64,000 nucleotides of DNA from Halorubrum aethiopicum (GTDB taxonomy: Archaea; Halobacteriota; Halobacteria; Halobacteriales; Haloferacaceae). The position numbers and the translations under genes were made by a program. Positions 4,793 to 58,633 of the stretch are shown here, one piece after another; position 1 is the first letter of the stretch, and every line of letters begins with the position of its first letter. The notes under the pieces are model-generated. The model saw nothing but the letters and a program-made list of their open reading frames with translations, had not been told where the DNA came from and searched no databases. The stretch lies in NCBI RefSeq assembly GCF_001542905.1, contig NZ_LOAJ01000001.1, positions 806,001 to 870,000 on the forward strand. The letters run 5' to 3'.

Positions 4793-6427
4793 ATGCCCCG
4801 CAACGATACACCACGACGAAATCTGAGCCGCAGACGGCTCCTCGCGAGCGGAACCGCCCTCTCGACGTCGGTCCTCCTCGCCGGCTGTGCCGGCGGTGGC
4901 GGCGGAGACGGAAGCGGTGACGGCGGAAGCGACGACGGAAGCGGTGGTGACGGCTCGACGCTGTATTTCGCGCAGGTGAAAGGTCCACTCGACATGGACC
5001 CGGTCGTGATGAACGACGTGCCCTCCGCCCAGATCACGGGCCAGATCTTCGACGGGATCTACGAGTACGGCGACGGCGTCGGCATTCAACCGAAGATCGC
5101 CGCCGAGATGCCGACCGTCGAGCGGGACGGCACGCGATTCATCGTCCCGATCCGTGAGGACGCCGAGTTCCAGAACGGCGACCCCGTCACCGCGGAGGAC
5201 GTCATCCACACGATGACGGCCCCCGTCGAGGAGCAGACGGAGAACGCCCCGGAGGTCAACATGATCGACAGCGCGGAGGCGATCGACGAACACACCGCGC
5301 AGTTCGACCTCTCGTACCCGTACGGCGCGTTCACCATCGCCATGGTCCGCAGCGTCGTCAACGCCTCCGTCCGTCAGGAGGACACCGAGGCGTACAACCA
5401 GGACCCCGTCGGCTCGGGGCCCTACCAGCTCGTCGAGTGGGAGCCGGAGAACTACGCGACCGTCGAGCGGTGGGACGACTACTGGGACGGCGACAACCTC
5501 CCGGAGATCGCGCGGATCGAGTTCGATCCGATCGAAGAGCAGACGACGCGGGTCACCGAACTGGAGACGGGCAACGTCGACATCATCGAGACGATCCCGC
5601 CGCAGCTGTACGAGACCGTCGAGAGCAACGAGAACGCAAGCATCACCCAGGAACCCGGGGTCGGCTACTTCTACCTCGCGTTCAACTGCGCCGACGGTCC
5701 GACGAGCGACCCCCTCGTCAGGGAGGCGGTCGACTACTGCTTCTCGATGGACCAGGCGATCGAGAACTTCGTCGAGCCGTCCGGGGTGCGACAGTACAGC
5801 CCCTACCCGTCGTCCATCTCCGAGGAGTGGGACTTCCCCGTCGACGAGTGGTCCGAGATCCCGCACGGACAGGACGTCGAGGAGGCGCAGGCGCTGTTCG
5901 AGGAGGCCGGCGTCCCGATGGACTACGACTGGCGGATCATCGTCCCGCCGGACGACATGCGCGAACAGATCGGCATCTCGATCGGCGACGGCCTCCAGAA
6001 CGCCGGTTTCGAGAACGTCCAGGTCCAGCGGCTCGACTGGGGAACGTTCACCGAGACCTACCAGAGCGACGACGGTCCCAATAGCGAGGACGACTACAAC
6101 ATGTACACGCTCGGGTGGTCCGGTGCCCCGGACCCGGACGCGTTCGCGTACAACCTCCTGAGCCAGGAGGCGGACGGCGTGACCAACGGGACCTTCCACG
6201 GCTACGACGAGGCCTCCGAGATGCTGACGCAGGCCCGCGAGTCCGCCGACCGCGAGGAGCGCCGGCAGCTCTACGTCGACGCGACGACGACGCTCCTCGA
6301 GGGGCGGGTCCACCTCCCGGCGTACAACCTGAACAACTCCTACGGCGTCCGCAGCGCCGTCGAGGGCTTCAGCGCACACCCCATCTCGAGCGAGATCCAG
6401 ATCGAGGGCGTCTCGGTCTCGCGGTGA
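4793..6427 (+). CDS. ABC transporter substrate-binding lipoprotein, peptide/nickel (SBP_bac_5) family
   Basis: Binding protein of a solute importer, 544 residues. The N-terminus has a twin-arginine motif (RNLSRRRLLASG) and a lipobox (LAGC, Cys at about residue 32), so it is exported folded by Tat and lipid-anchored outside the cell. A Gly/Ser/Asp-rich linker follows, then a family 5 binding fold with features such as DPVGSGPYQLVEW and the ending VHLPAYNLNNSYGV. It heads an operon with two permeases and two ATPases. Family members bind oligopeptides, dipeptides, nickel or sugars; the substrate cannot be read from the sequence. The 200-base gap to the permease may allow higher expression of the binding protein. 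Confidence 0.93.
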   Translation: MPRNDTPRRNLSRRRLLASGTALSTSVLLAGCAGGGGGDGSGDGGSDDGSGGDGSTLYFAQVKGPLDMDPVVMNDVPSAQITGQIFDGIYEYGDGVGIQPKIAAEMPTVERDGTRFIVPIREDAEFQNGDPVTAEDVIHTMTAPVEEQTENAPEVNMIDSAEAIDEHTAQFDLSYPYGAFTIAMVRSVVNASVRQEDTEAYNQDPVGSGPYQLVEWEPENYATVERWDDYWDGDNLPEIARIEFDPIEEQTTRVTELETGNVDIIETIPPQLYETVESNENASITQEPGVGYFYLAFNCADGPTSDPLVREAVDYCFSMDQAIENFVEPSGVRQYSPYPSSISEEWDFPVDEWSEIPHGQDVEEAQALFEEAGVPMDYDWRIIVPPDDMREQIGISIGDGLQNAGFENVQVQRLDWGTFTETYQSDDGPNSEDDYNMYTLGWSGAPDPDAFAYNLLSQEADGVTNGTFHGYDEASEMLTQARESADREERRQLYVDATTTLLEGRVHLPAYNLNNSYGVRSAVEGFSAHPISSEIQIEGVSVSR

Positions 6428-6629
6428 ACTGATCGGGCGAACGGCGGAGGCGTTCCGCCGGACCTTCGCGGGACGAACGCGATCGTCCGCGAAACGAGCG
6501 CGAACCTCCCGCGCGGTTCGCGGACGCGTTCGGACGCCCCCGCGATCGTCGGCGTAACCGCGTCGACTCGGGCGAAACGGACAAGCGACAGCGACAAACT
6601 GGATCGACCACAACGAGGAACCCACGACA

Positions 6630-7625
6630 GTGAGTCTACTTCGGTACACACTCTGGCGGCTCGCACAGGCGATACCCGTACTCATCGGTATCGTGACGAT
6701 CACGTTCTTTCTCGCGAACCAGATCCCCGGCGATCCGGTCGAGATCATGCTGGGCCCCACCCCGGCTCAAGAGCAGGTCGAGGCGATACGCGCCCGGTAC
6801 GGCCTCGACCGCCCGATCCACGAGCGGTACCTGACGTACCTCGCCGGCGTGGCCACGGGGGACCTCGGGCTCAGCATCTACTACGACCGGCCGGTGCTCG
6901 AGATGATCATGTTGCGGCTGCCGGTGACGCTTCTGCTCATGCTGTCGGCGTTCGCGTTCGCGATCGTCACGGCGATCCCGCTCGGCGTGATCTCGGCGAA
7001 GCGGCGGAACGAGCCGGCGGACCACGTCTCCCGGTTCGTCTCGCTGATCGGCGTCTCGACCCCGTCGTTCTGGATCGGGCTCGTGTTGATCATCGTCTTC
7101 GCGTTCCACCTCGGCTGGTTCCCCGCGCGCGGACTCGTCCTCCCGTGGGCGAACCCGGCCGACGTTCGGGGTGCCTCGACCCAGTGGGAGGTGATACGCC
7201 AGGCGGCCCATCACCTCTTCCTGCCGATGATCTCGCTGGGAACGCTCCAGATGGCGCAGATCACGCGGATCGAGCGCTCCTCGATGGTCGACTCCCTTCA
7301 GGGCGAGTACGTCACGCTCGCGCGGGCGTACGGCGTCCCCGAGTCGACCATCGTGCGCAAACACGCCTTTCAGGTCGCACAGCTCCCCGTGATCACGATA
7401 ATCGGCCTCGGGCTGTCGACGGCGCTCGGCGGGGCCGTCCTCACGGAGACCGTCTTCGAGATACAGGGGATGGGCCGGCTGATCATCACGGCGATCAACA
7501 ATCAGGACTACGAACTGATCATGGGGACGACGCTCGTGTTCGGGTTCGTGTACGTGATCGGCGTGATCATCACGGACGTCACGTACAGCTACCTCGACCC
7601 GCGGGTCACCTACGGTGAAGACTGA
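6630..7625 (+). CDS. ABC transporter permease, DppB/OppB type
   Basis: Integral membrane subunit of 331 residues starting at GTG. It has six predicted membrane segments and the family N-terminus (RYTLWRLAQAIPVLIGI). The EAA-type loop that docks the ATPase is seen around EYVTLARAYGVPESTIVRKH. The stop codon overlaps the next start by one base (TGATG), so the two permeases are probably translationally coupled. It forms a heterodimeric channel with the next gene product. Confidence 0.93.
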   Translation: MSLLRYTLWRLAQAIPVLIGIVTITFFLANQIPGDPVEIMLGPTPAQEQVEAIRARYGLDRPIHERYLTYLAGVATGDLGLSIYYDRPVLEMIMLRLPVTLLLMLSAFAFAIVTAIPLGVISAKRRNEPADHVSRFVSLIGVSTPSFWIGLVLIIVFAFHLGWFPARGLVLPWANPADVRGASTQWEVIRQAAHHLFLPMISLGTLQMAQITRIERSSMVDSLQGEYVTLARAYGVPESTIVRKHAFQVAQLPVITIIGLGLSTALGGAVLTETVFEIQGMGRLIITAINNQDYELIMGTTLVFGFVYVIGVIITDVTYSYLDPRVTYGED

Positions 7626-8611
7626 TGTCGATCAACAGCGCAACTTCGGACGACGACGTACCGGACGGCGACGGGGACGGGGACGGCGGTGAGGGGGTCG
7701 AGACCCGCGTCGGGCTCCGGTACACGCTGAGGGAGGTGCGGCGCGACACGACCGCGCGCATCGGGATCTACATCGTCGGCTTCATGACGTTCGTCGCGGC
7801 CTTCGCCGCGGTCGACTACTACCTGCTCGACTACGCGGTCGCCGAGGCGGTGTTGTACAACCCCGAGACCGACCCGGAGCGGGTAGAGCGCCTGCTGCCG
7901 CCGGTCGGCATGGAGAACCAGTTCGGTCAGGGGGTACTCGAGCACCCGCTCGGCACCGACCACCGCGGCCGGGACCTGCTCGCGCGCGTGATCTACGGGA
8001 CCCGCGTCGCGATGACCGTCGGGTTCATGGCGACCGCGATCGGGCTCTCCGGCGGCACGCTCGTCGGCGCGGTCTCCGGCTACTACGGCGGCTGGATCGA
8101 CGACGTGCTTCAGCGGGTCACGGAGACGATCTACGCGATCCCGTTTCTCGTGTTGGTCATCGCGTTCATGACCGCCTTCGGGCGTGACCTCACGTTCGCG
8201 ATGATCGGCGTCGGGATCACGGCGATCCCCGTGTTCAACCGGCTGATCCGGTCGCGGGTCGTCTCGATCCGCGAGGAGGACTACATCGAGGCCGCCCGCG
8301 CGGCGGGGGTGAAAGACCGGAACATCATCCTCAGACACGTCATTCCCAACAGCTTCGCGCCGGTGCTCGTTCAGGCGACGCTCCAGGTCGGAGTGAGCAT
8401 CCTCATCGTCGCCGGGCTCTCGTTCCTCGGGTTCGGCGCGCAGCCGCCGACCCCCTCGTGGGGCCAGATGCTCTCGGCCTCGCGCGGCTACATGCTTCCG
8501 GCACCGACGTTCAGCCTCTGGCCCGGCATCGCCATCCTGGTGACCGTCGTCGGGTTCAACATTCTGGGTGACGGGCTCCAGGACGCACTCGATCCGCGGA
8601 TCAACAACTGA
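7625..8611 (+). CDS. ABC transporter permease, DppC/OppC type
   Basis: Second membrane subunit, 328 residues. It has an acidic cytoplasmic N-terminal tail (DDDVPDGDGDGDGG), an early membrane segment, a long extracytoplasmic loop with the family signature HPLGTDHRGRDLLARVIYG, then five more helices and the EAA loop (EDYIEAARAAGVKDRNIILRH). It pairs with the DppB-type subunit. Seven bases separate it from the first ATPase. Confidence 0.93.
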   Translation: MSINSATSDDDVPDGDGDGDGGEGVETRVGLRYTLREVRRDTTARIGIYIVGFMTFVAAFAAVDYYLLDYAVAEAVLYNPETDPERVERLLPPVGMENQFGQGVLEHPLGTDHRGRDLLARVIYGTRVAMTVGFMATAIGLSGGTLVGAVSGYYGGWIDDVLQRVTETIYAIPFLVLVIAFMTAFGRDLTFAMIGVGITAIPVFNRLIRSRVVSIREEDYIEAARAAGVKDRNIILRHVIPNSFAPVLVQATLQVGVSILIVAGLSFLGFGAQPPTPSWGQMLSASRGYMLPAPTFSLWPGIAILVTVVGFNILGDGLQDALDPRINN

Positions 8612-46885: not shown

Positions 46886-47294
46886 TCCTCCTCCCGTCGT
46901 GGACTGGCGAGCGTCGCTGCCGCGTTCGAGACGCCTCCTACCGCCGATTTCGCTTCAACTCGCGCATCCCCGCGTATCCGCGGAAGGTGTCCGCGACCCA
47001 CCGCCCTGCGGCGACGACCGCCTCGATCGGCCGCCGCCACCACGGCCCGGGCTCCTCCTCGGCGTCATCGGTCCCGTTCGGTGCCATCGTTCCGATCGGT
47101 TCGGTACCGAGACACATAGTTGTTCGTCCGACCGCCGGCTCCGTCGCGTTTCGGTGCCGACGAAACCGGTATCGACGCGGAATGCCGTCGTCACCCTCGG
47201 ATCGGGTCCGTGTCGTGCCGTCGCGGTCCCGTCCCGGAGCGACCGCCGTCTTTCGAAATCCTTTTGTCTCGATTCGGCCTTGGTCGAGACGCGA
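46886..47294. other. Gap between tRNA-Pro and tRNA-Phe
   Basis: A 409-base gap. Apart from one candidate small leftward gene (46938-47087), I see no gene and no strong repeat. Confidence 0.4.
46938..47087 (-). CDS. Candidate small protein of 49 residues
   Basis: A short leftward frame, ATG at 47085-47087 and TAG at 46938-46940. The product starts MAPNGTDDAEEEPGPWW, has an amphipathic helical middle (RRPIEAVVAAGRWVADTF) and ends basic (MRELKRNRR). The acidic start plus helix plus basic end, and the ordinary haloarchaeal codon use, make it plausible. The frame is too short to be certain. Confidence 0.4.
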   Translation of the reverse strand: MAPNGTDDAEEEPGPWWRRPIEAVVAAGRWVADTFRGYAGMRELKRNRR

Positions 47295-47368
47295 GCCGCC
47301 TTAGCTCAGACTGGGAGAGCACTCGACTGAAGATCGAGCTGTCCCCCGTTCAAATCGGGGAGGCGGCA
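47295..47368 (+). tRNA. tRNA-Phe (anticodon GAA), integration target
   Basis: A 74-base cloverleaf. Acceptor stem GCCGCCT/AGGCGGC, D-arm TAGCTCAGACTGGGAGAGC, anticodon arm CTCGA-CTGAAGA-TCGAG with anticodon GAA, T-arm CCCCGTTCAAATCGGGG, discriminator A. The gene is intact; its last 33 bases are the left boundary of the integrated element. Confidence 0.97.
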
Positions 47369-47369
47369 T
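47336..47369 (+). repeat. attL: left 34-base direct repeat within tRNA-Phe
   Basis: It covers the tRNA from the 3' side of the anticodon stem to the discriminator base plus one T, and is identical to 57207-57240. This is the classic mark of integrase-mediated insertion into a tRNA 3' end. Confidence 0.93.
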
Positions 47370-47724
47370 CCCGATTCTACTCGGTTTTCATTCGCACGCA
47401 GGCAACGCCTTACGGCGATTTTACCGCCGAATTCCCGATTAGATTTGACCATGCTTCCACTCGCGCCCCGACGCCTTCTGGCGCTTCATCCTCATTTGAC
47501 CGGGAAGGCCCTTGTAGTTACTCGTGCCCCTGTACACACCACACAACCTCTGAAATACTGAAATTCTCCATAGGAATGCGTCGGGGCAATCCATAGCTCT
47601 CGAAGGATATTCTAAAGCCGCTGACGAGTCTATAGAGCGAGTCTATGAGAGAAGCAGCAGAAAGACTCTGCTCGCTATTATCTTGGCTCATATTCCAGTC
47701 TACGCGCTCTCACGAGATCGGCCA
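47370..47724. other. Left arm of the element, no clear gene
   Basis: No convincing gene on either strand. The base composition drops from G+C-rich to mixed here. A 13-base tandem repeat (CGAGTCTATAGAG at 47625-47637, then CGAGTCTATGAGA at 47638-47650) is present. Confidence 0.45.
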
Positions 47725-48639
47725 CTACACGCTGTCGAAGTCGTGCATCTCGCGATGTTTTTGGAGATATTTCGGAAGAGGCCAATGATCCTCACTCGAA
47801 GGGAGAATCAACTGATTGCCTTCCAGAGATGCGAACTCTTCAGACTCGTCCCGACCATCTTCTTGCCTGACAAGGATCTCGAAGTCATCCGTTGCTGAAA
47901 TCCAGCCGGAGTCAAAGGCCCAATGATGGAGCCTGCAAAGTGCAAGCCCGTTCCGATAGTGGTCCCGTCCATTTTCTCTTCGTGGGTAGATATGAGCCGC
48001 TTCAATCTCCGAATTACCTTCAGGTGTCTTCCGATTCGACCCACAGATGGCGCAGGTCTCATCGTAGTACCGCTTTACTCGCCGGCGGAAGAGGGCCGAT
48101 CTTGTTTTCCGAGATCCCGTCTCTTCGGTTTCATCTGTATCTTCCTCTAGCGGAGGATCATCATTTTCCTTAACTACTGCCTTCTCGACCTCCTCGTAAT
48201 CATCTGAAGAGGGTATTCCCAACTTTTCGAGGAGGAATCGGTTAATCATCCGAGTCCCATCAGAGATATACTCATGATCGACAACGTCGACTAGCCCCTC
48301 ATACTCCCAATCCTCTCCCTTACTCTCTCGACTGAAGAAGTAGATCGGAACAGACAACTCGTCGCACTGGGCAATCAGCCGACCGTTTCGACCAGATGTA
48401 GGCTGATCCCCATCTCCATGATCTTGACCGATATATCGGACCCGATCGCCTCGTAGGTGGTCCGAGTAATGACTATCTCCACTTGAAGTGAGGACAATGT
48501 ACTCTACGTCTCCGTGCTCGTCCTTCCGGGGGTTGATGCCGGCCATGAAGCCCCCACTATCGAATATGCCCTTGATATCATCCATGTGATACTCAGATCC
48601 AATATCAAGCCGATGTTCATCAACTGACGGGTCGCGCAT
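47725..48639 (-). CDS. HNH endonuclease with SRA/YDG-like N-domain (McrA-like)
   Basis: A 304-residue protein. Residues 18-125 (IKGIFDSGGFMAGINPRKDE, then VPIYFFSRESKGEDWEYEGL) resemble the DNA-reading domain seen in front of HNH nucleases that cut modified DNA. A Glu/Asp-rich linker follows. The HNH domain is at about 190-245, with C196/C199, H216 in EAAHIYPR, N230, and C235/H238/H239 in LCRLHHWAF. It is probably a type IV-like restriction enzyme that the element uses against competitors; substrate recognition is inferred. Base composition is lower in G+C than the chromosome. Confidence 0.75.
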   Translation of the reverse strand: MRDPSVDEHRLDIGSEYHMDDIKGIFDSGGFMAGINPRKDEHGDVEYIVLTSSGDSHYSDHLRGDRVRYIGQDHGDGDQPTSGRNGRLIAQCDELSVPIYFFSRESKGEDWEYEGLVDVVDHEYISDGTRMINRFLLEKLGIPSSDDYEEVEKAVVKENDDPPLEEDTDETEETGSRKTRSALFRRRVKRYYDETCAICGSNRKTPEGNSEIEAAHIYPRRENGRDHYRNGLALCRLHHWAFDSGWISATDDFEILVRQEDGRDESEEFASLEGNQLILPSSEDHWPLPKYLQKHREMHDFDSV

Positions 48640-48871: not shown

Positions 48872-49087
48872 ATGGCCGACGCGGTCGAGAGAATAGTATC
48901 GGGCGTTGTCCTGAGCATTCTCGGAGTACTCTCGATATACATCCTCAACGCTTTCGCCATGACACCGGCACTTCAGACCGAACAGGGAGTAACGATCCTA
49001 CGGACTGCGGCGGATTCGATAGTCCTGCTGATCGTAGTCGGTTTGCCGGGGGGACTGCTGATCGCAAAGTTACTTGCGAAGATGTGA
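48872..49087 (+). CDS. Small two-helix membrane protein
   Basis: A 71-residue protein with two hydrophobic helices (about residues 9-30 and 47-69), starting MADAVERIVSGVVLSILG. A GAGGAG motif precedes the start by about 16 bases. It is divergent from the HNH gene. The function is unknown. Confidence 0.5.
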   Translation: MADAVERIVSGVVLSILGVLSIYILNAFAMTPALQTEQGVTILRTAADSIVLLIVVGLPGGLLIAKLLAKM

Positions 49088-49106: not shown

Positions 49107-50090
49107 CTACTCATAGTCTTCATCGCCAAACTCGGACTCGTAACTCCGGATAAGGAAAGTCAGATAGGCCGACACCTGATGGAGCAGGAGGGTGCAGTAT
49201 TCCCGATCCATCTCTTTATGACGATTCTTACGCTCTGCACCGGCCTTCTGAAACGCCTTCTCCATTGACTCCGTCAGGTCAACCAATTCGGCGTGCATGA
49301 TGTTGTTCGGCTCAAAGAGTCCCTCCTCACGCATTCGATTGAGATAGACCGATAGGTTCTGTTCACGATTATCTTCCCATCCTTCCAAGTCTACGCAAAT
49401 CGTGCGGGCAAGTTCCTCAATACTATTATAAAGCTTCTCAGGAATTTCGTTGCCATATTTTCTGTCAGCGTATAAGTTGTGAGCAGTGTTATATGGTGAA
49501 GATACGGACTGCCATCTTTTCGATTGAGCAATGGCGATGAAGTTCTCAACAGCGTCTTCCATCATCTCTGATCCGACTGGTCGGAAGTTGAACTCGGTAT
49601 TCTCAACTTCTAATTTCCACAGAATACACTCTGTCTCCAGTACAGTATTGATTTTTTGAGCGGTTTCGGGTAGTCTTTGAACTACAAACTCATGTTTGTT
49701 CTGTAGAGGTGTCTGTGTGAGAGGTACATCCTCCCACTCATTAGGCGATTTTTTGAAAGTGACTGCTTCAAACAGATTCTCTATCACCGTTAATACGGTA
49801 TCCGTCTCGGCAGTCATAATTAGATTCTGTAGCTCAGCAAATGGTGTACGCATTTCGTGTCGGTACTCTTGGATTTTGGAATAGCCTACATCCTGCGAAG
49901 AGGCATTCAAAGCCTGATTAATAATGGAATCCGGAATGCCGTTGCTCAATTTGGTCAGCGGAACACTAGCCGGATTTGAAACAATCGGGAAGAGTCGGTC
50001 ACGTGCATTTTCAGTCAACTCACGATGAACTCGTGGTTTTCCTGCCTTTTGTCGATCTGCGATGGAGTTGTATTCATCCTCGTCACTCAT
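49107..50090 (-). CDS. Hypothetical protein, all-helical, possible Abi/HEPN-like C-domain
   Basis: A 327-residue soluble protein, second gene of a two-gene operon. The first 180 residues are unlike anything I recognise. The C-terminal half (about 195-320) is a helical bundle with LYNSIEELARTICVDLEGW and, near the end, RKNRHKEMDREYCTLLLHQ. Its spacing and the late Arg/His cluster recall AbiJ-type HEPN tails. A true HEPN RNase motif (R-x4-6-H) is not cleanly present, so this is a weak suggestion. No signal peptide. Confidence 0.6.
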   Translation of the reverse strand: MSDEDEYNSIADRQKAGKPRVHRELTENARDRLFPIVSNPASVPLTKLSNGIPDSIINQALNASSQDVGYSKIQEYRHEMRTPFAELQNLIMTAETDTVLTVIENLFEAVTFKKSPNEWEDVPLTQTPLQNKHEFVVQRLPETAQKINTVLETECILWKLEVENTEFNFRPVGSEMMEDAVENFIAIAQSKRWQSVSSPYNTAHNLYADRKYGNEIPEKLYNSIEELARTICVDLEGWEDNREQNLSVYLNRMREEGLFEPNNIMHAELVDLTESMEKAFQKAGAERKNRHKEMDREYCTLLLHQVSAYLTFLIRSYESEFGDEDYE

Positions 50091-50148
50091 TTGATCACCA
50101 GGATATCGGGAACTCTAGCAGTATCAAACCTCGTTCAGTCAGCCGAAA

Positions 50149-50952
50149 TCAGTCGCTATCTTCTTCGTGAGCCAGTCCATCGGTAACGGAAGAAAGAACA
50201 TCACGGACACGTTCGCCTTCTTGATCAAGATCAATGTCAGCAGGGTGACTGATTGTGTAGCGGCCACTTTGATATGCCTCATTAATTTGACCCTCAGCGT
50301 TCTTCATCCGAAGGTAATCCACTTCTGAGAGACGTGCGAATCCGTCAACGATAGGCGGACCTTGGAGATTATTGTCTTGCTGACCTGTGCTAAATTCCGC
50401 TCGAACTACGCTTTCGCCGGCTCGATCCACATGGCCTGCCACATCAGAATCGATGGAGGTATTTTCCTCATCTCTGTCTCCGATTTCATCTAACTTCAGG
50501 CCTCGAACGCGGAATGCGCCCTCATAGAACTCTTTCATCTGCTCGCGCGTAAATCGATTATATCGATTACATTGGAAATCGATCTCAAACGAATCATCTC
50601 CGATCAAATACTCCAGAGCATTATCATCATACACTCCAGACGTTGACTCGTACGCGTATGATCCGTCTTGCGTCAGCAGGAACCGCATGATTCGGGCGAT
50701 ATTTCCTTCACCGATGACGACTTCGCCCTCATCAATCTCTTTTCGTTCCTCGGTGACCTCGTGAACGTATCGCAGATAGATGTAATCATCTCCGATGGTG
50801 TACTCCTCTCCTTCAGACTCCATCGAAACACCTCTCCGATTGCCTGTCGTGCCAAATATACCATTTCTCTCAACTTCTTCAGCTAAAGTTTCAAGTGGAG
50901 GGATCGACTCGTCGGCTTGCGCTTCACCGAACCTCAGTTTGATTTTTGGCAT
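50149..50952 (-). CDS. Hypothetical protein, first gene of the two-gene operon
   Basis: A 267-residue protein starting MPKIKLRFGEAQADES. A beta-rich first half (EEYTIGDDYIYLRYVHEVTEE; DNALEYLIGDDSFEIDFQ) is followed by an acidic second half ending in a charged tail. I do not recognise the family. A clear TATA box lies 18-29 bases upstream and the next gene starts 58 bases after its stop, so the pair is a self-contained expression unit within the element. Confidence 0.6.
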   Translation of the reverse strand: MPKIKLRFGEAQADESIPPLETLAEEVERNGIFGTTGNRRGVSMESEGEEYTIGDDYIYLRYVHEVTEERKEIDEGEVVIGEGNIARIMRFLLTQDGSYAYESTSGVYDDNALEYLIGDDSFEIDFQCNRYNRFTREQMKEFYEGAFRVRGLKLDEIGDRDEENTSIDSDVAGHVDRAGESVVRAEFSTGQQDNNLQGPPIVDGFARLSEVDYLRMKNAEGQINEAYQSGRYTISHPADIDLDQEGERVRDVLSSVTDGLAHEEDSD

Positions 50953-50969
50953 GCCTCATCTGTCGTTGC

Positions 50970-50981
50970 GTTGGCAAATAT
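50970..50981 (-). promoter_or_regulatory. TATA box of the two-gene operon
   Basis: Read leftward, AGGTATATTTGCC lies 18-29 bases before the ATG at 50950-50952, giving a leaderless or near-leaderless message. Confidence 0.55.
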
Positions 50982-51040
50982 ACCTTATCCTGCATGTGAA
51001 AGTAAACTCCATACGACGGTACACCGGATATTTGATACTC

Positions 51041-51582
51041 TCAAACGGCCTGCAGATGATATTCCAATTGAAACGGAATCTTATACTGTAGAGTAATTGG
51101 AGCATCAATAGGAAGTCCCGAAAACTCACCTAGGCACACCCCATCCCCAATCCAGTTTACACCACTCTGCTCTGTTGAATCCGATGACGGCACAGAGAAC
51201 ACGATCTCTGAAGATGTGATTATCTCGCTCTTTGTCGTCAAGGAGGTGAATCGATCTAACCAGTGATCTTGATCCTCTACATCCCTGCCGAGACTGCATT
51301 TTAGAATTCCCTCGACAGAGTTCCTGAGGAGACTATAGAGTAATCCGATCCCAACGCCTCCTGCGGATTCAACAGAGCACACCACTCCGTTTCGATTTCT
51401 AAGTTCTCATTCAACCTACGGTGCTGGTGAGTCTTATCGCTGGACAGTCTCACGTGATGGTAGAGACTACTAGGATCATCAATATCGACTCTATTACGGC
51501 CATCTGTTGGGCACCGATATACGTCCGGATCGTAGTCTGATCTATGGTTGCCCTGCCGGGCCTTCCAGATTTGTTCGAGCTT
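51041..51582 (-). pseudogene. Degraded or start-less reading frame after the primase gene
   Basis: Two protein-like pieces lie here, read leftward. The first (51301-51582) continues in exactly the same frame after the TAA of the primase gene. It gives 93 codons (KLEQIWKARQGNHRSDY..., ...DPDVYRCPTDGRNRVDI) with no ATG. The second (51041-51385, starting MVCSVESAGGVGIGLLY) overlaps its end in another frame. Together they look like one gene broken by a frameshift and lacking its start. Alternatively, the TAA is a nonsense change that cut a longer primase protein. The family is not recognised. Confidence 0.4.
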
Positions 51583-53034
51583 TTAATTGCTCTCGGGTTT
51601 AGCCGAAATAGTACCTCTATCAGTCATTACCTCCTGATTCCATTCCTCCCTCTGTGACTCTGGTTCAGGATCACGCTTCTTCCCCTCAACTTTCACGTAG
51701 CAGGCGTCTGCGGGGTCTGGATAGGTCGCTGGATAATACACGTACGTACTTGACCCAATTCGCGCCATCTTTGCCCCGCCTTTTTGTCGAATATTTCGGA
51801 GAATATTCTCATACGACCCTTCCGACAGTTCGTACTCTTTCCGCGCTCTCTCAACAATCTCGCCCATCGTCGGATATGGATTCTCACTCGATGACCCGCC
51901 ACCAGATTCTTGCGATTCTGGGGTCATATTAATAGACAGGGTGGGGGGGTTAGAAGAGAGAGAATATGCTACGGTGAGTTCGTAGAGTGCGTCCATGGCG
52001 ATCTCATAGGCGTGTTCGGAGTAGTCGTTCGTCTTTCGATTACCGCTCTGTCGCCAGAGGTTCCATATCTCGAATTCGAAGTTCTCTATCGCGTAGTCAA
52101 GAGTGTTCTGTCGGTAGTTCCGCTGGCAGTCAGCGCTCCCTGCTACCCATTTTCGTCTCTCTCCGCTCCGTTTCGTGTATGGATTTTCGGTCGCCGCATG
52201 GGTAAAGTAGTGATATGTCAGACTGCGGGCCTGCTGTCGGTCAGCGCCTCCATCGAGGAAGATTCCGTATAGGAAAGAGCAGAGTGTAGTCTCAGCCCCA
52301 CTCCGATCATTCTTGAATCCACGCTTGGCGTATCGCCCGTTAAGCAGGTCGTTATAGTATTTTCGTGCGCGTGGCCCTGTCTCCTGACCATAGAGAAAGT
52401 CACGAATGTATCCTCGGGCTTCTTCAATTATCTTCTCGCCTCCGTCATCTGCGGGGAGTTCAGCGCGATCTCGTTCGTTTCTGGTGGATTTCTTGGGCAG
52501 GTGTTGTTCACAAATGGATATCAACTCTTCTCGCCGGTCTTTGATAGTCTTAGGCGTCGATTCAAGATGTTCTCCGCTGAAGGTGAAGTATTGCTTCGAG
52601 TCGTACACCTCAATGTTTTCTATGTTAGTGTAACCCGACGGCTTCTCTCCTTGGATGAGAGTGTGAATTCCTGTCCCTGATGGAGATACCTCTGAGTAAG
52701 AGTTGAGTCGTTTGATTATTCCCTCAATTTTCTCATCAACATCTCCTGTCGAGGGCTCGCGTATATCGTCAAAATCAACTCCAGCAAATGGGTCCTCGTC
52801 TGTCAGGACGAACCCGATACCATCGTAATTCCCCCGACGATAGGAATCAAGCGCAGTCTCAAGGTCTGACCAAGTTTCAGTATTGATGGGATTACGTTTG
52901 CAGTTTGTTTCAGGATCGAAGGGAGGCTTCTTTCCCTCTTCGTGGCGCCAACAAATCCACTGATTGTGCTCTCTGAGCGTCTTAGGTACGCTCTCGGCGG
53001 AAATGTTATGTCTTTTGATTGGATATTTTTTCAT
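51583..53034 (-). CDS. NrS-1-like primase-polymerase (archaeo-eukaryotic primase fold)
   Basis: A 483-residue replication protein. The N-terminal 200 residues match the phage NrS-1 polymerase/primase type: NQWICWRHEEGKKPPFDPET, NYDGIGFVLTDEDPFAGVDFDD (catalytic D87/D89) and SYSEVSPSGTGIHTLIQG (His124). No helicase domain follows; the C-terminal third is Ser/Glu-rich with a helix-turn-helix-like segment near 400-450 (GEIVERARKEYELSEGSYENIL). The ATG at 53034 was chosen over 53106, because the upstream residues are unlike the family. It probably starts replication of the excised element. Confidence 0.8.
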   Translation of the reverse strand: MKKYPIKRHNISAESVPKTLREHNQWICWRHEEGKKPPFDPETNCKRNPINTETWSDLETALDSYRRGNYDGIGFVLTDEDPFAGVDFDDIREPSTGDVDEKIEGIIKRLNSYSEVSPSGTGIHTLIQGEKPSGYTNIENIEVYDSKQYFTFSGEHLESTPKTIKDRREELISICEQHLPKKSTRNERDRAELPADDGGEKIIEEARGYIRDFLYGQETGPRARKYYNDLLNGRYAKRGFKNDRSGAETTLCSFLYGIFLDGGADRQQARSLTYHYFTHAATENPYTKRSGERRKWVAGSADCQRNYRQNTLDYAIENFEFEIWNLWRQSGNRKTNDYSEHAYEIAMDALYELTVAYSLSSNPPTLSINMTPESQESGGGSSSENPYPTMGEIVERARKEYELSEGSYENILRNIRQKGGAKMARIGSSTYVYYPATYPDPADACYVKVEGKKRDPEPESQREEWNQEVMTDRGTISAKPESN

Positions 53035-53212
53035 GTCTAAGGCCTCCACCCTTAGGCAGGATGTCGTACAGGGGAGCCCGGATTGGTGCTTTCTCCCCCG
53101 TTTCATTCGCTTGACTCATTAGGTCGTCTAGTGTCTGCCAACTATACGGATTCAAGCCAAATAAATCCAAGAGTGCCTGTATAGGTTCCAAGAGTTCCAA
53201 TTTCACATCCAT
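53006..53212 (-). CDS. Small protein overlapping the primase start
   Basis: A 68-residue frame, MDVKLELLEPIQALLDLFGL..., overlapping the primase start by 29 bases. The helical first half (LEPIQALLDLFGLNPYSWQTLDD) looks like real protein. Its place just before the replication gene suggests a small accessory or copy-control protein, but nothing proves it. Confidence 0.42.
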   Translation of the reverse strand: MDVKLELLEPIQALLDLFGLNPYSWQTLDDLMSQANETGEKAPIRAPLYDILPKGGGLRHEKISNQKT

Positions 53213-53269: not shown

Positions 53270-53710
53270 ATGTCAGTAGAGCAAGAACCAGTATCGGGTG
53301 TCGGCGCTCCACTTGGGAACGATAATGCAGTTGAGAATTCTGGTGGTGGGGCCCCACTTGGAAACTCAAACGCTGTAGGAAATTCTGGTGGTGGGGCTCC
53401 AAAATGCAACACCAATAGGAAGAGCCATGGAGTCTACTGCTCCCTAGAAAACATAGATGAAAGAGCCGAGGGAGAAACTATCGAGGTAATTGACGAGATC
53501 GAAGAAACAATTCGGGAACGAACCACGGCAGAGCTCGACGAACTGCCACGGGAAATTCCACTCCGCTTAATTCGTCATGACCGGGCGGTTCGAGATATTC
53601 AGAATCGTGGAGTGATCTTGGATGACGGTAGCGTAAATCCGATGGTATCGAAATCACGCCGTATTTTAGATAATATTATTGATGACTTGTGTAAGATGGA
53701 AGTAATCTAA
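53270..53710 (+). CDS. GAPxGN-repeat protein (terminase-small-subunit-like N-terminus)
   Basis: A 146-residue protein. The N-terminus repeats GAPLGNxNA units: two exact-length 45-base DNA repeats (53309-53353 and 53354-53398), each coding 15 residues. These lead into KSHGVYCS, a pattern common at the start of phage terminase small subunits and related plasmid proteins. The remainder is helical and charged (ERTTAELDELPREIPLRLIRH). It is divergent from the primase unit. The function may be DNA binding during replication or packaging; no terminase large subunit is present. Confidence 0.65.
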   Translation: MSVEQEPVSGVGAPLGNDNAVENSGGGAPLGNSNAVGNSGGGAPKCNTNRKSHGVYCSLENIDERAEGETIEVIDEIEETIRERTTAELDELPREIPLRLIRHDRAVRDIQNRGVILDDGSVNPMVSKSRRILDNIIDDLCKMEVI

Positions 53711-54092: not shown

Positions 54093-55943
54093 CTAATCGA
54101 TTTCAAACATATCGCTATCTGTGTTATACTGTATGTGTACTTCCAAAATCTCAGCATTTGATCTTCCTTTTTTGAATCGTCTATTCCAATATTTCGTTCG
54201 GACATCTCCGCGTATTTTCTTGATTGTTTCTAAGAACTCATCAGAATGATTCTCCATTGAAAAAGGGATCCATGCCGTGTGACGCGGGAGACCTCTGAAT
54301 GATTCAAGTCCAAAAACATCATCAAAACTCGGGTTCTTCAGAATTCGATCAAAAGCAATCTCTAATGGAATGATTCCTCCTTCTCGAAGAACTATTGTTA
54401 AAGTCGGCATGCCTTCAAAATCCGATTTTTCACCCCGTCGAACTGCGGTATATCCAACGGTTTCGAGAAATCTTTGAGCAAGTAGTATGGCACTCGCTGT
54501 GGGTGGGTGATTAAATGAATACACTAACAGCTCTCGCCATGCTCCAGAAATATACATTGGAATGGTTCCTCCATCGTCGGGCCAGTCTACAGATTGGTAG
54601 TGCTGCGCAGTAATTGTCATCATGTGTATTCGTATATTAATAAGAATAGAAATAGTTGAATTACTGTGCTGTCGAGGATCGTAATTCGAATGAATGCTAT
54701 CTCGATCTCGACTACCTACCATCTCATGAATAGGGGGATCAATAGCTTCAATCTCTTTGGCGTTCTCTGAGACGGTCTTTTTGTACCACTCAACCTGTCG
54801 ATCGATCAGTTCTTTAATTGTGACATTATGGACGAGGTTTTTCTTAGGTGTAACTCCGTCAACCCATCTCATCATTTCGTACGCATGTGATGAACGGTCA
54901 AGAAAAAGGTCATAATCTCTATTTTCTATGAGATATCCCATTATATCGAGCGAATTTGTGATTGAAGTGTGTAACACCCGACTTTGACCTGATTCTTCTT
55001 CAAGAGGATCAGGAATCCCGAGCATCACATCATTGTATATTGATATAAGTGCGAGGTCAGAGATAGTGATATTGTTGTATTGTATGCCTTTCCCACCAAG
55101 ATCACCAATATGATTTACAGCATTTTGTGATAATTCAATATAATTCTCTTCGACCGAACTAAGTGCGATTCTAGGGAGGTACTCACTAAGAACTGGCGTA
55201 AATAGGAGGCCGATTCTTTCGCTTTCTTCGGATTGAGCATATTTGTCCTCATATTCATCGGGAATGACAATAGAATCAATACCATCTGCTGCTATCTGAC
55301 TTTCAATTACATCATTAGTGATCTGATGAATTGTTTCTTCGCCTTCAGAAGCGACCGCTAGTTCATCTTGCTGAATTGAAGTTCTCGTAAGATCATAAAT
55401 CGGCTGTAAAGGATGATCAGCTAATGAATTGTTTTTTCCAGCTTCTATTGACTGCTCTCGGTATGATTCTGGCGTTAACTGCGCATGATAGTGCCGTAAT
55501 AGATTTGTCGGCGTTGTTTGTTCAAGGAATTCTCCTATATAAATAACAACGCCTACTAAAACGGCTCCCGAGACCCCAATCATCCAAATGAATAGTGATT
55601 CCTTCGCATTCGTACCGAGAGCAGGAATCAAACCGAGGATAGTTAGTAATACAATAATGGATCCAATAGCTAGATAGAGTGCTTCTCGAAATAACGGTGA
55701 TCTAACGAATAGCTTGATAAACGCTGGTGAATATCTTGTACTCACTATCTGAGAAACAACAAAGGTAACAGAGAATACAATTGCTAATACGGATGCTTGT
55801 GCCATTACAAGCGTCTGTAATGTACTAGTAATGGTTTCAGAACTCGGTGAATATGCTTGAATACAATATCCTACAAAAACTCCAACAAACAATAGAAGGA
55901 GCGCAATTGAGCCAGCGAATAGTCGCCTCCGAACTGGGCTCAT
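54093..55943 (-). CDS. DUF2254-like membrane protein
   Basis: A 616-residue protein. Four predicted helices lie within the first 150 residues: 10-30, 45-68 with VLAIVFSVTFVVSQIVSTRYSP, 90-108 and 118-138. The VSQIVSTRYSP segment is characteristic of DUF2254. The remaining 460 residues are a soluble, mixed alpha/beta part. It is A+T-rich compared with chromosomal genes. Its role on the element is unknown; a membrane-associated immunity or abortive function would fit the cargo position but is not shown. Confidence 0.75.
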   Translation of the reverse strand: MSPVRRRLFAGSIALLLLFVGVFVGYCIQAYSPSSETITSTLQTLVMAQASVLAIVFSVTFVVSQIVSTRYSPAFIKLFVRSPLFREALYLAIGSIIVLLTILGLIPALGTNAKESLFIWMIGVSGAVLVGVVIYIGEFLEQTTPTNLLRHYHAQLTPESYREQSIEAGKNNSLADHPLQPIYDLTRTSIQQDELAVASEGEETIHQITNDVIESQIAADGIDSIVIPDEYEDKYAQSEESERIGLLFTPVLSEYLPRIALSSVEENYIELSQNAVNHIGDLGGKGIQYNNITISDLALISIYNDVMLGIPDPLEEESGQSRVLHTSITNSLDIMGYLIENRDYDLFLDRSSHAYEMMRWVDGVTPKKNLVHNVTIKELIDRQVEWYKKTVSENAKEIEAIDPPIHEMVGSRDRDSIHSNYDPRQHSNSTISILINIRIHMMTITAQHYQSVDWPDDGGTIPMYISGAWRELLVYSFNHPPTASAILLAQRFLETVGYTAVRRGEKSDFEGMPTLTIVLREGGIIPLEIAFDRILKNPSFDDVFGLESFRGLPRHTAWIPFSMENHSDEFLETIKKIRGDVRTKYWNRRFKKGRSNAEILEVHIQYNTDSDMFEID

Positions 55944-56120: not shown

Positions 56121-57146
56121 TTAGATCCCGCTAATATAGTTTCGGCGTTGTTCGACCTTCACTTCTTCATCCCGTTTGTCATAATGCTTATCCAAAACGT
56201 CTTGCCCGACATTCATTCTATCAGAGACGACCTTCTCAGGAACATCTTCGGTCAGAAAATGAGTTATTGAACCCCGACGGATATCGTGGGGGGAGACGTT
56301 GACCGGGCACTTGCTATAACCACTGTATTCACCTGCCTCACATTCATCGGGATCTCGACTCTTTGGACAATCGTCACCATAGTAACAGGGACGGGTGATT
56401 CGATAGATCGCATCTCGGATACTCGTATGATTCATACGGCCATTCCGACTCGTGAGAAGAGGCTCACGCCCATACTCGTCCTCCACGTCATGGCGGTTAT
56501 GGTCTCTCCAATCCTCTATTGAGCGGCAAACCTCGGCACTCAGGGCAACTATACGCTCTCCTTCTTTCCCATTCTTGAGTGGCGTATCCGTCTCTGGTCG
56601 ATGGCGGATCGTGAGCCGTTCAGCGTCTCCATCGTAGTCCTCAAGATCTAGAGAGCGAAGGGATCCAAGACGGATTCCCGTATGCCACAGGATTTCCATG
56701 ATAACGTGCGCACGAGATGCGTGCTCGAATTTCCGCTGGTATTCAAGCAGAGATTGCGCCTGGTCGATATCCAATATGCTCTCGCTCTGTTCGTCGGTCT
56801 TGTTGAGTTGAGGCATCAGTGCCTCAAATTTCTCGTGGAGGTCTTGTTCGACTGCGTCGATGGATCCACACCAACGGATGAAGATGCGGAGGGCGTCGAG
56901 TTGCCCCCGAAGCGTGATCGGCTTCAGATCGCCATCGTCTCTCCGCCATGTCTTGAATCGTTGAAGATCGCGCCCAGAGAGGTTGTTCAGATTCTCGATC
57001 GCCTCAACGTCCTCGCACCATCGGATGAAGTGCTTGAGCCGATAGTGGTAGCCGTCGAGAGTCGATTGCGATACCTCCTGCTTTCGCGCTTCGAGATACA
57101 TCTCTTTCGCCGCAGCCGGCGAAATGGGTTCGAGTTCTTCGCTCAT
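56121..57146 (-). CDS. Tyrosine recombinase/integrase
   Basis: A 341-residue integrase. An N-terminal SAM-like DNA-binding domain (about 12-110) is followed by the catalytic domain. Visible residues are Arg159 in HTGIRLGSLRSLD, the HxxR in SPHDIRRGSITH (H287, R290) and the nucleophile Tyr322 in DVLDKHYDKR. A Cys-rich insertion (CYYGDDC...CEAGEYSGYSKC, about 254-280) precedes the HxxR. The ATG at 57144-57146 gives the family start; a longer upstream frame runs through attR. It is the enzyme expected to have made the 34-base repeats. Confidence 0.9.
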   Translation of the reverse strand: MSEELEPISPAAAKEMYLEARKQEVSQSTLDGYHYRLKHFIRWCEDVEAIENLNNLSGRDLQRFKTWRRDDGDLKPITLRGQLDALRIFIRWCGSIDAVEQDLHEKFEALMPQLNKTDEQSESILDIDQAQSLLEYQRKFEHASRAHVIMEILWHTGIRLGSLRSLDLEDYDGDAERLTIRHRPETDTPLKNGKEGERIVALSAEVCRSIEDWRDHNRHDVEDEYGREPLLTSRNGRMNHTSIRDAIYRITRPCYYGDDCPKSRDPDECEAGEYSGYSKCPVNVSPHDIRRGSITHFLTEDVPEKVVSDRMNVGQDVLDKHYDKRDEEVKVEQRRNYISGI

Positions 57147-57206: not shown

Positions 57207-57240
57207 GAGCTGTCCCCCGTTCAAATCGGGGAGGCGGCAT
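57207..57240 (+). repeat. attR: right 34-base direct repeat
   Basis: An exact copy of the tRNA-Phe 3' part at 47336-47369. It marks the right end of the element. Confidence 0.93.
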
Positions 57241-57271
57241 ACCTTTTCGGCGCGATCCGCATTCGTCAGCT

Positions 57272-57440
57272 CCGACTGAAGAGCGAGCTGTCCCCCGTCC
57301 CCGCGAGCGAAGCGAGCGGGGAACAGTGAGACGACCGGAGGGAGTCTCACGCGTCTCAAATCGGGGAGGCGGCACACTCTGAACCCGTGAGCGGAGCGGT
57401 CGATCGTCTCGGCGAGTCAGATCGGGGAGAGGCGTCCTGA
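57272..57440 (+). repeat. Further broken copies of the tRNA-Phe 3' end
   Basis: Bases 57272-57298 match the tRNA from anticodon stem to T-arm with two differences, and 57356-57374 match the rest of the T-arm and acceptor. The two are split by a 57-base insertion at the T-loop that is made of two hairpins (CCCCGC/GCGGGG and GAGAC/GTCTC). A third, weaker remnant (CAGATCGGGGAGAGGCG) lies at about 57418-57434. These look like scars of earlier integrations at the same tRNA. Confidence 0.7.
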
Positions 57441-57454
57441 CGTCACGCGATCGA

Positions 57455-58300
57455 CTACGTCTTCTCGTCGTCCGCGTCCTCCTCGTCGGTCCCGATCGCG
57501 TTCTGGAGACGGTCGATGTCGGTGACCTTCTCCAGGTCGCCCATGGTGACGGGAGTCTGCTCGTCGGCGCGCTCGCCGCTCGCGACGCCGCTCGTGAGGA
57601 TGCTTCGGACGCCCTCCTCGATGGACATGTCCACGTCCATGACGCGGTCGCGGGGGACGTGCGTCAGGAAGCCGCCCGTGACGGGGTTCGGCGCGAGCGG
57701 GATGAACAGCGTGACCATCTCGTCGTGGCCGGCCGCCTCGGCGACCGTCTCCGGCGACGTGCTCGTCTCGAAGCCGATGACGTGGACGTCGTCGCCGAAA
57801 CACTGGACGAGCTTGATCTCCTGGAAGTTCTCGGCCTCGTTGTCGAGCATCACGTCGCCCATCCGCCGAAAGCTCTTGTAGACGGTCCCGATACCAGGGA
57901 TCGACGCGAGCGCGAGGTCGACGACGTCTATCGCCTGCTCGCCGTACCGGTGGCGACCGACGGACCCGACGACGACGACGATCCCCAGCAGGACGCCGAC
58001 GGCGATGATCTCCGTGAAGAAGTCGATGACGTAGCCGTAGACGTGTAACTCGATCAGCACGGAGACGAGGTCGGTCTCCCTGAACCACGCGATGACGCCG
58101 AACCACCTGAGCACCCGAATGAAGGGAGTCAGCGCGCTCGTGATGAAATCGAGGGCGATCGTCAGAACGTACAGCGAGATCACGAGGGGGACGATGATCG
58201 CGATCCCCGTCATCAGGACGTCGAGCGTCCCGCCGTAGAGCGATTCGACCGTGTCCCGCGCCGGCCGTGACGAGTCGTCGGAGGGGTCTGGAGTCGCCAT
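57455..58300 (-). CDS. DUF502 membrane protein
   Basis: A 281-residue protein. Two membrane segments (about residues 28-50 and 92-115) flank a short extracytoplasmic region; the soluble C-domain contains IPGIGTVYKSFRRMGDVML and FIPLAPNPVTGGFLTHVPRD, both typical of DUF502. The function is unknown. The ATG at 58300 starts at the normal family N-terminus. It is the first chromosomal gene right of the element. Confidence 0.87.
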   Translation of the reverse strand: MATPDPSDDSSRPARDTVESLYGGTLDVLMTGIAIIVPLVISLYVLTIALDFITSALTPFIRVLRWFGVIAWFRETDLVSVLIELHVYGYVIDFFTEIIAVGVLLGIVVVVGSVGRHRYGEQAIDVVDLALASIPGIGTVYKSFRRMGDVMLDNEAENFQEIKLVQCFGDDVHVIGFETSTSPETVAEAAGHDEMVTLFIPLAPNPVTGGFLTHVPRDRVMDVDMSIEEGVRSILTSGVASGERADEQTPVTMGDLEKVTDIDRLQNAIGTDEEDADDEKT

Positions 58301-58335
58301 CGTTCTTCTCACGAAAACCACCGTGAAAACAGTAT

Positions 58336-58633
58336 CGCCCCTTCGAGACGCTCGACCGCACCGTCCCGCACCTCACGCCTCCCCAGCCTCGTTGCCGGGG
58401 CTCCGCCGACGGCTGCCAGAGGCACGGAGCGCCTCGCTGCGACTCCCTGCTCGCGGCTTCGCCGCTCGCTTATCGGGGTACTCACTTCGTTCGTACCTCG
58501 CCACGCTCGCAGCGTCCCTCGCGGGCTCCTCGCGCCCTCCGGGGGCTCGGAGGCGCAGGGCGAGAGCTTCGCTCTCGCGTGACGCCGGTGCTACGTGCCG
58601 GCGACGCCACCGCACGGCGGAGTCGCTCGTCGT
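58336..58633 (-). repeat. Structured intergenic repeat, copy D (3' truncated)
   Basis: Read leftward, it has a variant 5' box (GGTGGCGTCGCC), an added hairpin, the CTCCGAG...GAGGAG arm, GCCCGCGAGGGACGC, several hairpins, and GAGGCTGGGGAGGCGTGAGG. It stops around a decayed CTCGAAGGGGCGA box at 58336-58350. The entire 3' half, including the central-stem partner and the CTGGGGCTTTGG box, is missing. Confidence 0.75.

Follow-up and report, generated by a model that had tools for sequence, protein, structure and literature searches.

Two neighbouring genes on a haloarchaeal chromosome raise the question of whether they form one defence system or are two separate genes that happen to lie side by side. 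The window, i.e., the whole stretch of 64,000 nucleotides that was analysed (chromosome positions 806001-870000), contains both as open reading frames on the minus strand, referred to here as gene A and gene B (Table 1), with a gap of 58 bp between them. An earlier note had described them as a self-contained two-gene operon, a candidate cargo or defence module; the two reading frames are present with the sizes and the 58-base spacing that it gave, and the TATA box that it reported, TATATTT, is found upstream of gene A. The best explanation, considered reasonably probable, is that the locus consists of two tandem candidate antivirus genes, each standing alone, which are carried as cargo by an element integrated at a tRNA-Phe gene.

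Table 1. Features of the locus (window coordinates) and of the four-TM genes that adjoin relatives of gene A (locus coordinates).
Feature	Position	Strand	Basis or description
tRNA-Phe (GAA), integration target	47295..47368	+	ARAGORN
Left att, tRNA-Phe 3′ end	47336..47370	+	direct repeat; empty site in relative G204
HNH endonuclease, element gene	47725..48639	-	PF13391, E 4.5e-13
Gene B	50090-49107	-	327 aa; AbiJ_NTD4-like N half and predicted HEPN-fold C half
HEPN-fold helical bundle (predicted), B residues 190-321	49128..49523	-	VIA-align structural matches
RKNRH, B residues R287-H291, conserved but short HEPN-type motif	49218..49232	-	20 homologues
AbiJ_NTD4-like region, B residues 19-164	49599..50036	-	Pfam PF18863
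Gene A	50952-50149	-	267 aa; predicted RdgC/RexA/Iml3-fold protein
TATA box of gene A, TATATTT (as read on +)	50976-50982	-	sequence
ACTTTCAC box, just upstream of TATA box, common to A homologues	50996-51003	-	sequence comparison
Primase/helicase-like replication gene, element gene	51583..53106	-	PHROG 13901, E 1.4e-44
Tyrosine integrase	56121..57146	-	PHROG 1 integrase, E 1.6e-33; beside right att
Right att, copy of tRNA-Phe 3′ end	57207..57241	+	direct repeat; empty site in G204
Four-TM protein, L047	73-582		
Four-TM protein, L048	8848-9381		
Four-TM protein, L050	8897-9448		

Both A and B are real genes, because full-length homologues of each are found across haloarchaea, with identities of up to 67% for A and up to 51% for B. 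The last base of the TATA box lies 24 bp ahead of the ATG of gene A, and the ACTTTCAC box is found 51-60 nt before the start codon in six A homologues, i.e., gene A and five others, one of the six being counted after correction of its start (0.013 cases expected; Poisson P about 8e-15). Elsewhere, ACTTTCAC(T) is located at positions 8272 and 9921 of locus L052, 8632 of L053, 7659 of L054, 7661 of L055 and 8567 of L121, and in L052 there is a second context for it, 72 nt before the CBASS cyclase. As judged from these comparisons of sequence, the predicted promoter of gene A is more than a chance resemblance, and it is gene A's own, of a type typical of the family. It is possible that ACTTTCAC is a regulatory site shared by A homologues and the CBASS cyclase and recognised by a common regulator. 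In viral contigs, the pattern of ACTTTCAC with a TATA box gave three matches, all inside bacterial phage genes and apparently due to chance. Gene B may be co-transcribed from the promoter of gene A, or could have a weak promoter within the 58-bp gap. Two other features of the surrounding DNA are a perfect 16-bp inverted repeat (TGCTCTGTTGAATCCG), whose arms (51168-51183 and 51364-51379) are separated by 180 bp and lie in the interval from gene A to the primase gene, and a 71-amino-acid open reading frame (48872-49087) convergent with gene B, which has two predicted TM helices and is without a family match.

A block of low GC content (40-57%, vs about 70%) extends from about 47.4 to 57 kb and includes both genes. 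The 3′ end of tRNA-Phe is present as two direct repeats (Table 1), the right one beside a tyrosine integrase, and in the close relative G204 the site is empty: there, the window flanks 46913-47373 and 57417-58344 are contiguous, with an att overlap of about 24 bp. The att repeat, the integrase and the empty site therefore mark out an element of about 9.9 kb that has integrated here. These observations support the proposal of the earlier note that the A and B locus is cargo of an integrative element. Past the right att are additional tRNA-Phe fragments (57273-57298 and 57356-57377, within the region 57207-57377), as if from earlier integrations. The element also encodes a short protein with GAPLGN repeats (53270-53710), which has weak matches to small terminase subunits; no other virion genes are visible on the element, and the short protein is a possible satellite trait. 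In the part of the element with the lowest GC content is a gene for a membrane protein of 616 amino acids (54093-55943), in which DUF2254 is recognised at the N-terminus only.

The identity of gene A had not been foreseen by the earlier note. Its AlphaFold model, made for the monomer (pLDDT 81, pTM 0.79), matches Escherichia coli RdgC (Foldseek E 1.6e-5; VIA Z 10.8 with 2owl, 223 residues at 5.0 Å), Iml3 (VIA Z 9.8, 173 residues at 3.8 Å) and RexA of phage lambda (Foldseek E 1.3e-3; VIA Z 8.7 with 8twq). These matches are mutually consistent, because RexA, RdgC and Iml3 are known to have a common scaffold (PMC11077077). The N half also matches TBP in structural comparison, and among viral models the matches are phage proteins, some annotated as RdgC and others uncharacterised (E down to 1e-9 for the latter). 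Thus, gene A is predicted to have the two-module RdgC/RexA/Iml3 fold, its model displaying both the fold of the RdgC monomer and the two-domain fold of RexA. No link to RexA or RdgC was found at the level of sequence: searches of Pfam, NCBIfam, PADLOC and PHROG gave no family match for gene A, which is thus without a match to the RexA profile PF15969; hhalign with four RexA proteins gave a probability of 0.1%; and the genome as a whole contained nothing that matched the RdgC profile PF04381 at E <= 10. The positions conserved in the family are mostly glycines or structural residues (G9, P18, G97, A100, S103, S188, G190, L196, G230), with no conserved catalytic residues or enzyme-like constellation. 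Very acidic proteins are usual in halophiles, and the pI of 4.3 of gene A, itself very acidic, neither shows nor excludes the predicted non-specific DNA binding as a dimer in such an organism. Judged from its model, gene A may work like RexA and RdgC, but it is not a member of either family by sequence.

The neighbours of A homologues include several defence systems, as read from a plain listing of neighbouring genes, which is the form of comparison used for A and B alike. In L051, the KwaA and KwaB genes of Kiwa are divergent from the A homologue; in L052, a CBASS cyclase and a 2TM effector directly upstream of the A homologue, the A homologue itself and a IIG restriction enzyme are consecutive on one strand; a type I restriction enzyme (L046), a IIG methylase (L043) and, in one further locus, a Shedu protein are also found near A homologues. 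Adjoining the A homologue of L045 is a gene of unusual architecture (5662-7206), in which an Mrr-type restriction endonuclease domain is fused to a PQQ beta-propeller.

Membrane proteins beside A homologues were considered one by one as possible counterparts of RexB. Those in L051 and L052 were rejected, as they are KwaA of Kiwa and the CBASS 2TM effector, respectively, and that in L046 was set aside because it resembles an ordinary gene of the chromosome. What is left is the cluster of L047, L048 and L050, from three genera: in each, the A homologue is divergent, at a distance of 42-56 bp, from a gene for a protein of 169-183 amino acids, which is similar to RexB in size and contains roughly four TM segments and a central loop. 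The four-TM protein is almost absent away from A homologues, and when 243 genomes were searched independently, the one strong match to it was the copy adjoining A. The arrangement recalls RexA-RexB and Sbash gp30/31 (PMC6426596), and some A relatives may pass on their output via the four-TM protein, as RexA does via RexB. In overall fold, and in being cargo of a mobile element, gene A is similar to lambda RexA and the RexAB-like systems (Sbash gp30/31, CarolAnn gp44/43; PMC11077077, PMC6426596). It differs from RexA in having no sequence similarity to it; the four-TM genes of its relatives are without a RexB Pfam match and are divergent rather than co-directional. No RexB-like four-TM partner adjoins gene A in the window, where the nearest TM reading frame is the two-TM one of 71 amino acids, beyond gene B.

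In Halobacteria and Bacillus, histone operons have been reported to encode an RdgC-like protein together with a TM protein (PMC11390915), so RdgC-like proteins in haloarchaea are not new in themselves. Gene A likewise has an RdgC-like fold, is haloarchaeal and is sometimes (in its relatives) accompanied by a TM protein, but it is shorter, lacks an adjoining histone gene and usually stands alone. None of the histone Pfam matches of the genome is within the window, and a search via histones for the RdgC-like protein of the histone operons did not find it in the genomes examined. What does seem to be new is the gene A family, in which there is no histone gene. With Iml3/CENP-L and CENP-N of the kinetochore, gene A has only the scaffold in common and no functional link.

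A role without defence, in which A is an RdgC-like protein of recombination or replication that serves the mobile element and B alone is a defence gene, is the alternative that survives best, and is nevertheless unlikely. RdgC is the best match for the fold, integrases often adjoin A (Phage_integrase matches in 6 of 41 neighbours of A homologues), and in the window gene A adjoins the primase gene of the element. Against this are the A homologues found next to genes of CBASS, Kiwa, Shedu and restriction systems, and those of one genus in which divergent A-like genes (L124, L126-L130) share a single fixed position on the chromosome that has no integrase, and near which neither a mobile nor a defence gene is recognised. 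The latter would suit a housekeeping role in that lineage, a point against the preferred reading too, and suggest a form that is vertically kept and possibly domesticated. Under the preferred reading of two stand-alone antivirus genes, gene A, like RexA and RdgC, would most likely engage DNA, as a sensor or modulator whose target is invader DNA or recombination.

Gene B looks like a protein of the AbiJ type. Its N half matches Pfam PF18863 (AbiJ_NTD4) with E 9.8e-5, at 23.3 bits below the cut-off of 34, and PF18863 matches are present in 3 of the 19 members of the gene B family; the match to NCBIfam NF046078 (STM4504/CBY_0614; E 1.1e-3) is also sub-threshold, at 18.3 bits vs a cut-off of 150, and PADLOC PDC-S32 is matched with E 2.7e-4. 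These three weak matches point to one lineage, CBY_0614 being the representative protein of AbiJ-NTD4 (PMC3710099). The structure model of gene B (pLDDT 80, pTM 0.62) terminates in a helical bundle. A Foldseek search with the whole model gave no significant match, and HEPN appears only in the second structural alignment, by VIA-align, where the eight top matches of the bundle are all chains with HEPN domains (2hsb, Z 10.6; 4nqf, 10.4; 2q00, 10.2; AbiA, 9.0; HepT-type, 8.7 and 8.0; Csm6, 7.3; HI0074, 7.2), with about 111-122 residues aligned and unrelated chains from Z 6.4 down, a Z near 10 being within the range of chance for helical bundles. The C-terminal domain is thus predicted to have the HEPN fold, which agrees with the likeness to AbiJ/HEPN tails that the earlier note had seen in it.

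Every one of the 20 homologues of gene B has LYNxxE in the second helix and R[KH]x(1-2)H in the stretch that joins the last two. The spacing of R to H is Rx2-3H, whereas the catalytic motif of HEPN is defined as Rx4-6H (PMC3710099); the remark that the RNase motif was not clear was thus apt, in that R and H are conserved but closely spaced. Because of this spacing, gene B is kept out of the canonical AbiJ group, although it may work like one, and it could be inactive or act differently; the predicted RNase activity is plausible, not assured. To sum the comparison with AbiJ-NTD4 (PMC3710099), the N-domain (tentatively, by its three weak but concordant matches), the predicted C-terminal HEPN fold and the defence and mobile contexts of the homologues are similar, whereas the sub-threshold scores, the motif and the host differ: gene B is haloarchaeal, and the survey of 2013 listed AbiJ in bacteria only. 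Homologues of gene B have no fixed partner gene; among their neighbours are type I and GmrSD restriction genes, SNF2/PLD-helicase defence genes and integrases. The defence flavour suggested for the locus is supported. Gene B would be an abortive-infection protein: on detecting infection, its AbiJ_NTD4-like N-domain would free the C-terminal HEPN domain, and the latter would act as a dimeric, metal-independent RNase that stops translation.

How the two genes are distributed bears directly on whether they belong together. In the same 391 genomes of the class, A is found in 16 and B in 20, and both are found in two genomes, vs 0.8 expected (P=0.19), which is not above chance. Among these genomes, searched with each protein, the window locus is the only adjacent A-B pair; profile searches of the order detected A in 24 of 392 genomes and B in 14 of 293, with no second adjacent pair in the neighbourhoods read. 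These distributions led to rejection of the pair as a conserved module, and the self-contained system of the earlier note is not supported. That note had itself named the genes never occurring together elsewhere as a refutation, and the outcome goes against its reading: the only other genome with both is that of Haloarcula marismortui ATCC 43049 (G153), where they are not adjacent but on different contigs (A homologue L054, B homologue L071, the replicon of the latter matching NC_006393). Among 237 genomes sampled from the phylum, none outside haloarchaea had A; A was not found in plasmids either, and neither A nor B was found in IMG/VR viral contigs or phage records; a plasmid of H. marismortui, in two records, was the only one with B. 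The tree of A mixes haloarchaeal families, as would be expected of horizontal transfer.

A linked A-B system is possible but not favoured. In one form of it, A and B would be a true two-component defence operon, in which a DNA sensor with the RexA fold triggers a HEPN RNase rather than a channel of the RexB type. The shared strand, the 58-bp gap and a clear promoter for A only are consistent with this, and because A relatives take another partner in a fixed arrangement (the four-TM protein, in three genera), an exchange of effectors is conceivable. The absence of a second pair from the genomes searched, the co-occurrence at chance level, and the fact that B homologues bring their own N-domain and stand alone make it decidedly unlikely. 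A toxin-antitoxin pair, in which B is a HEPN toxin and A its antitoxin, would suit adjacent, co-directional genes, but is very improbable, as toxin and antitoxin must travel together, B is found without A in 18 of 20 genomes, and the fold of A is that of RdgC/RexA, not that of the HEPN partner MNT. The preferred reading is thus that of two stand-alone genes, which chance has probably placed side by side in a cargo slot.

Decades of work on RexAB have not led to a settled mechanism. A haloarchaeal family with the same predicted fold, in defence neighbourhoods and sometimes with a four-TM protein, provides independent relatives for testing what the RexA/RdgC scaffold senses. That haloarchaea have in it their own RexA-fold defence sensor which exchanges its effector, using a divergent four-TM protein in certain lineages and a HEPN RNase on this element, is a long shot; to our knowledge, a RexA-type sensor coupled to an RNase is known in no phage. 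If true, it would mean that sensing of the RexA kind extends beyond bacterial phages; the paper on the structure of RexA does not mention archaea (PMC11077077). Gene B would extend HEPN proteins of the AbiJ type into haloarchaea, with an unusual but invariant candidate active-site motif that is directly testable, and natural copies of both A and B are available in H. marismortui ATCC 43049.
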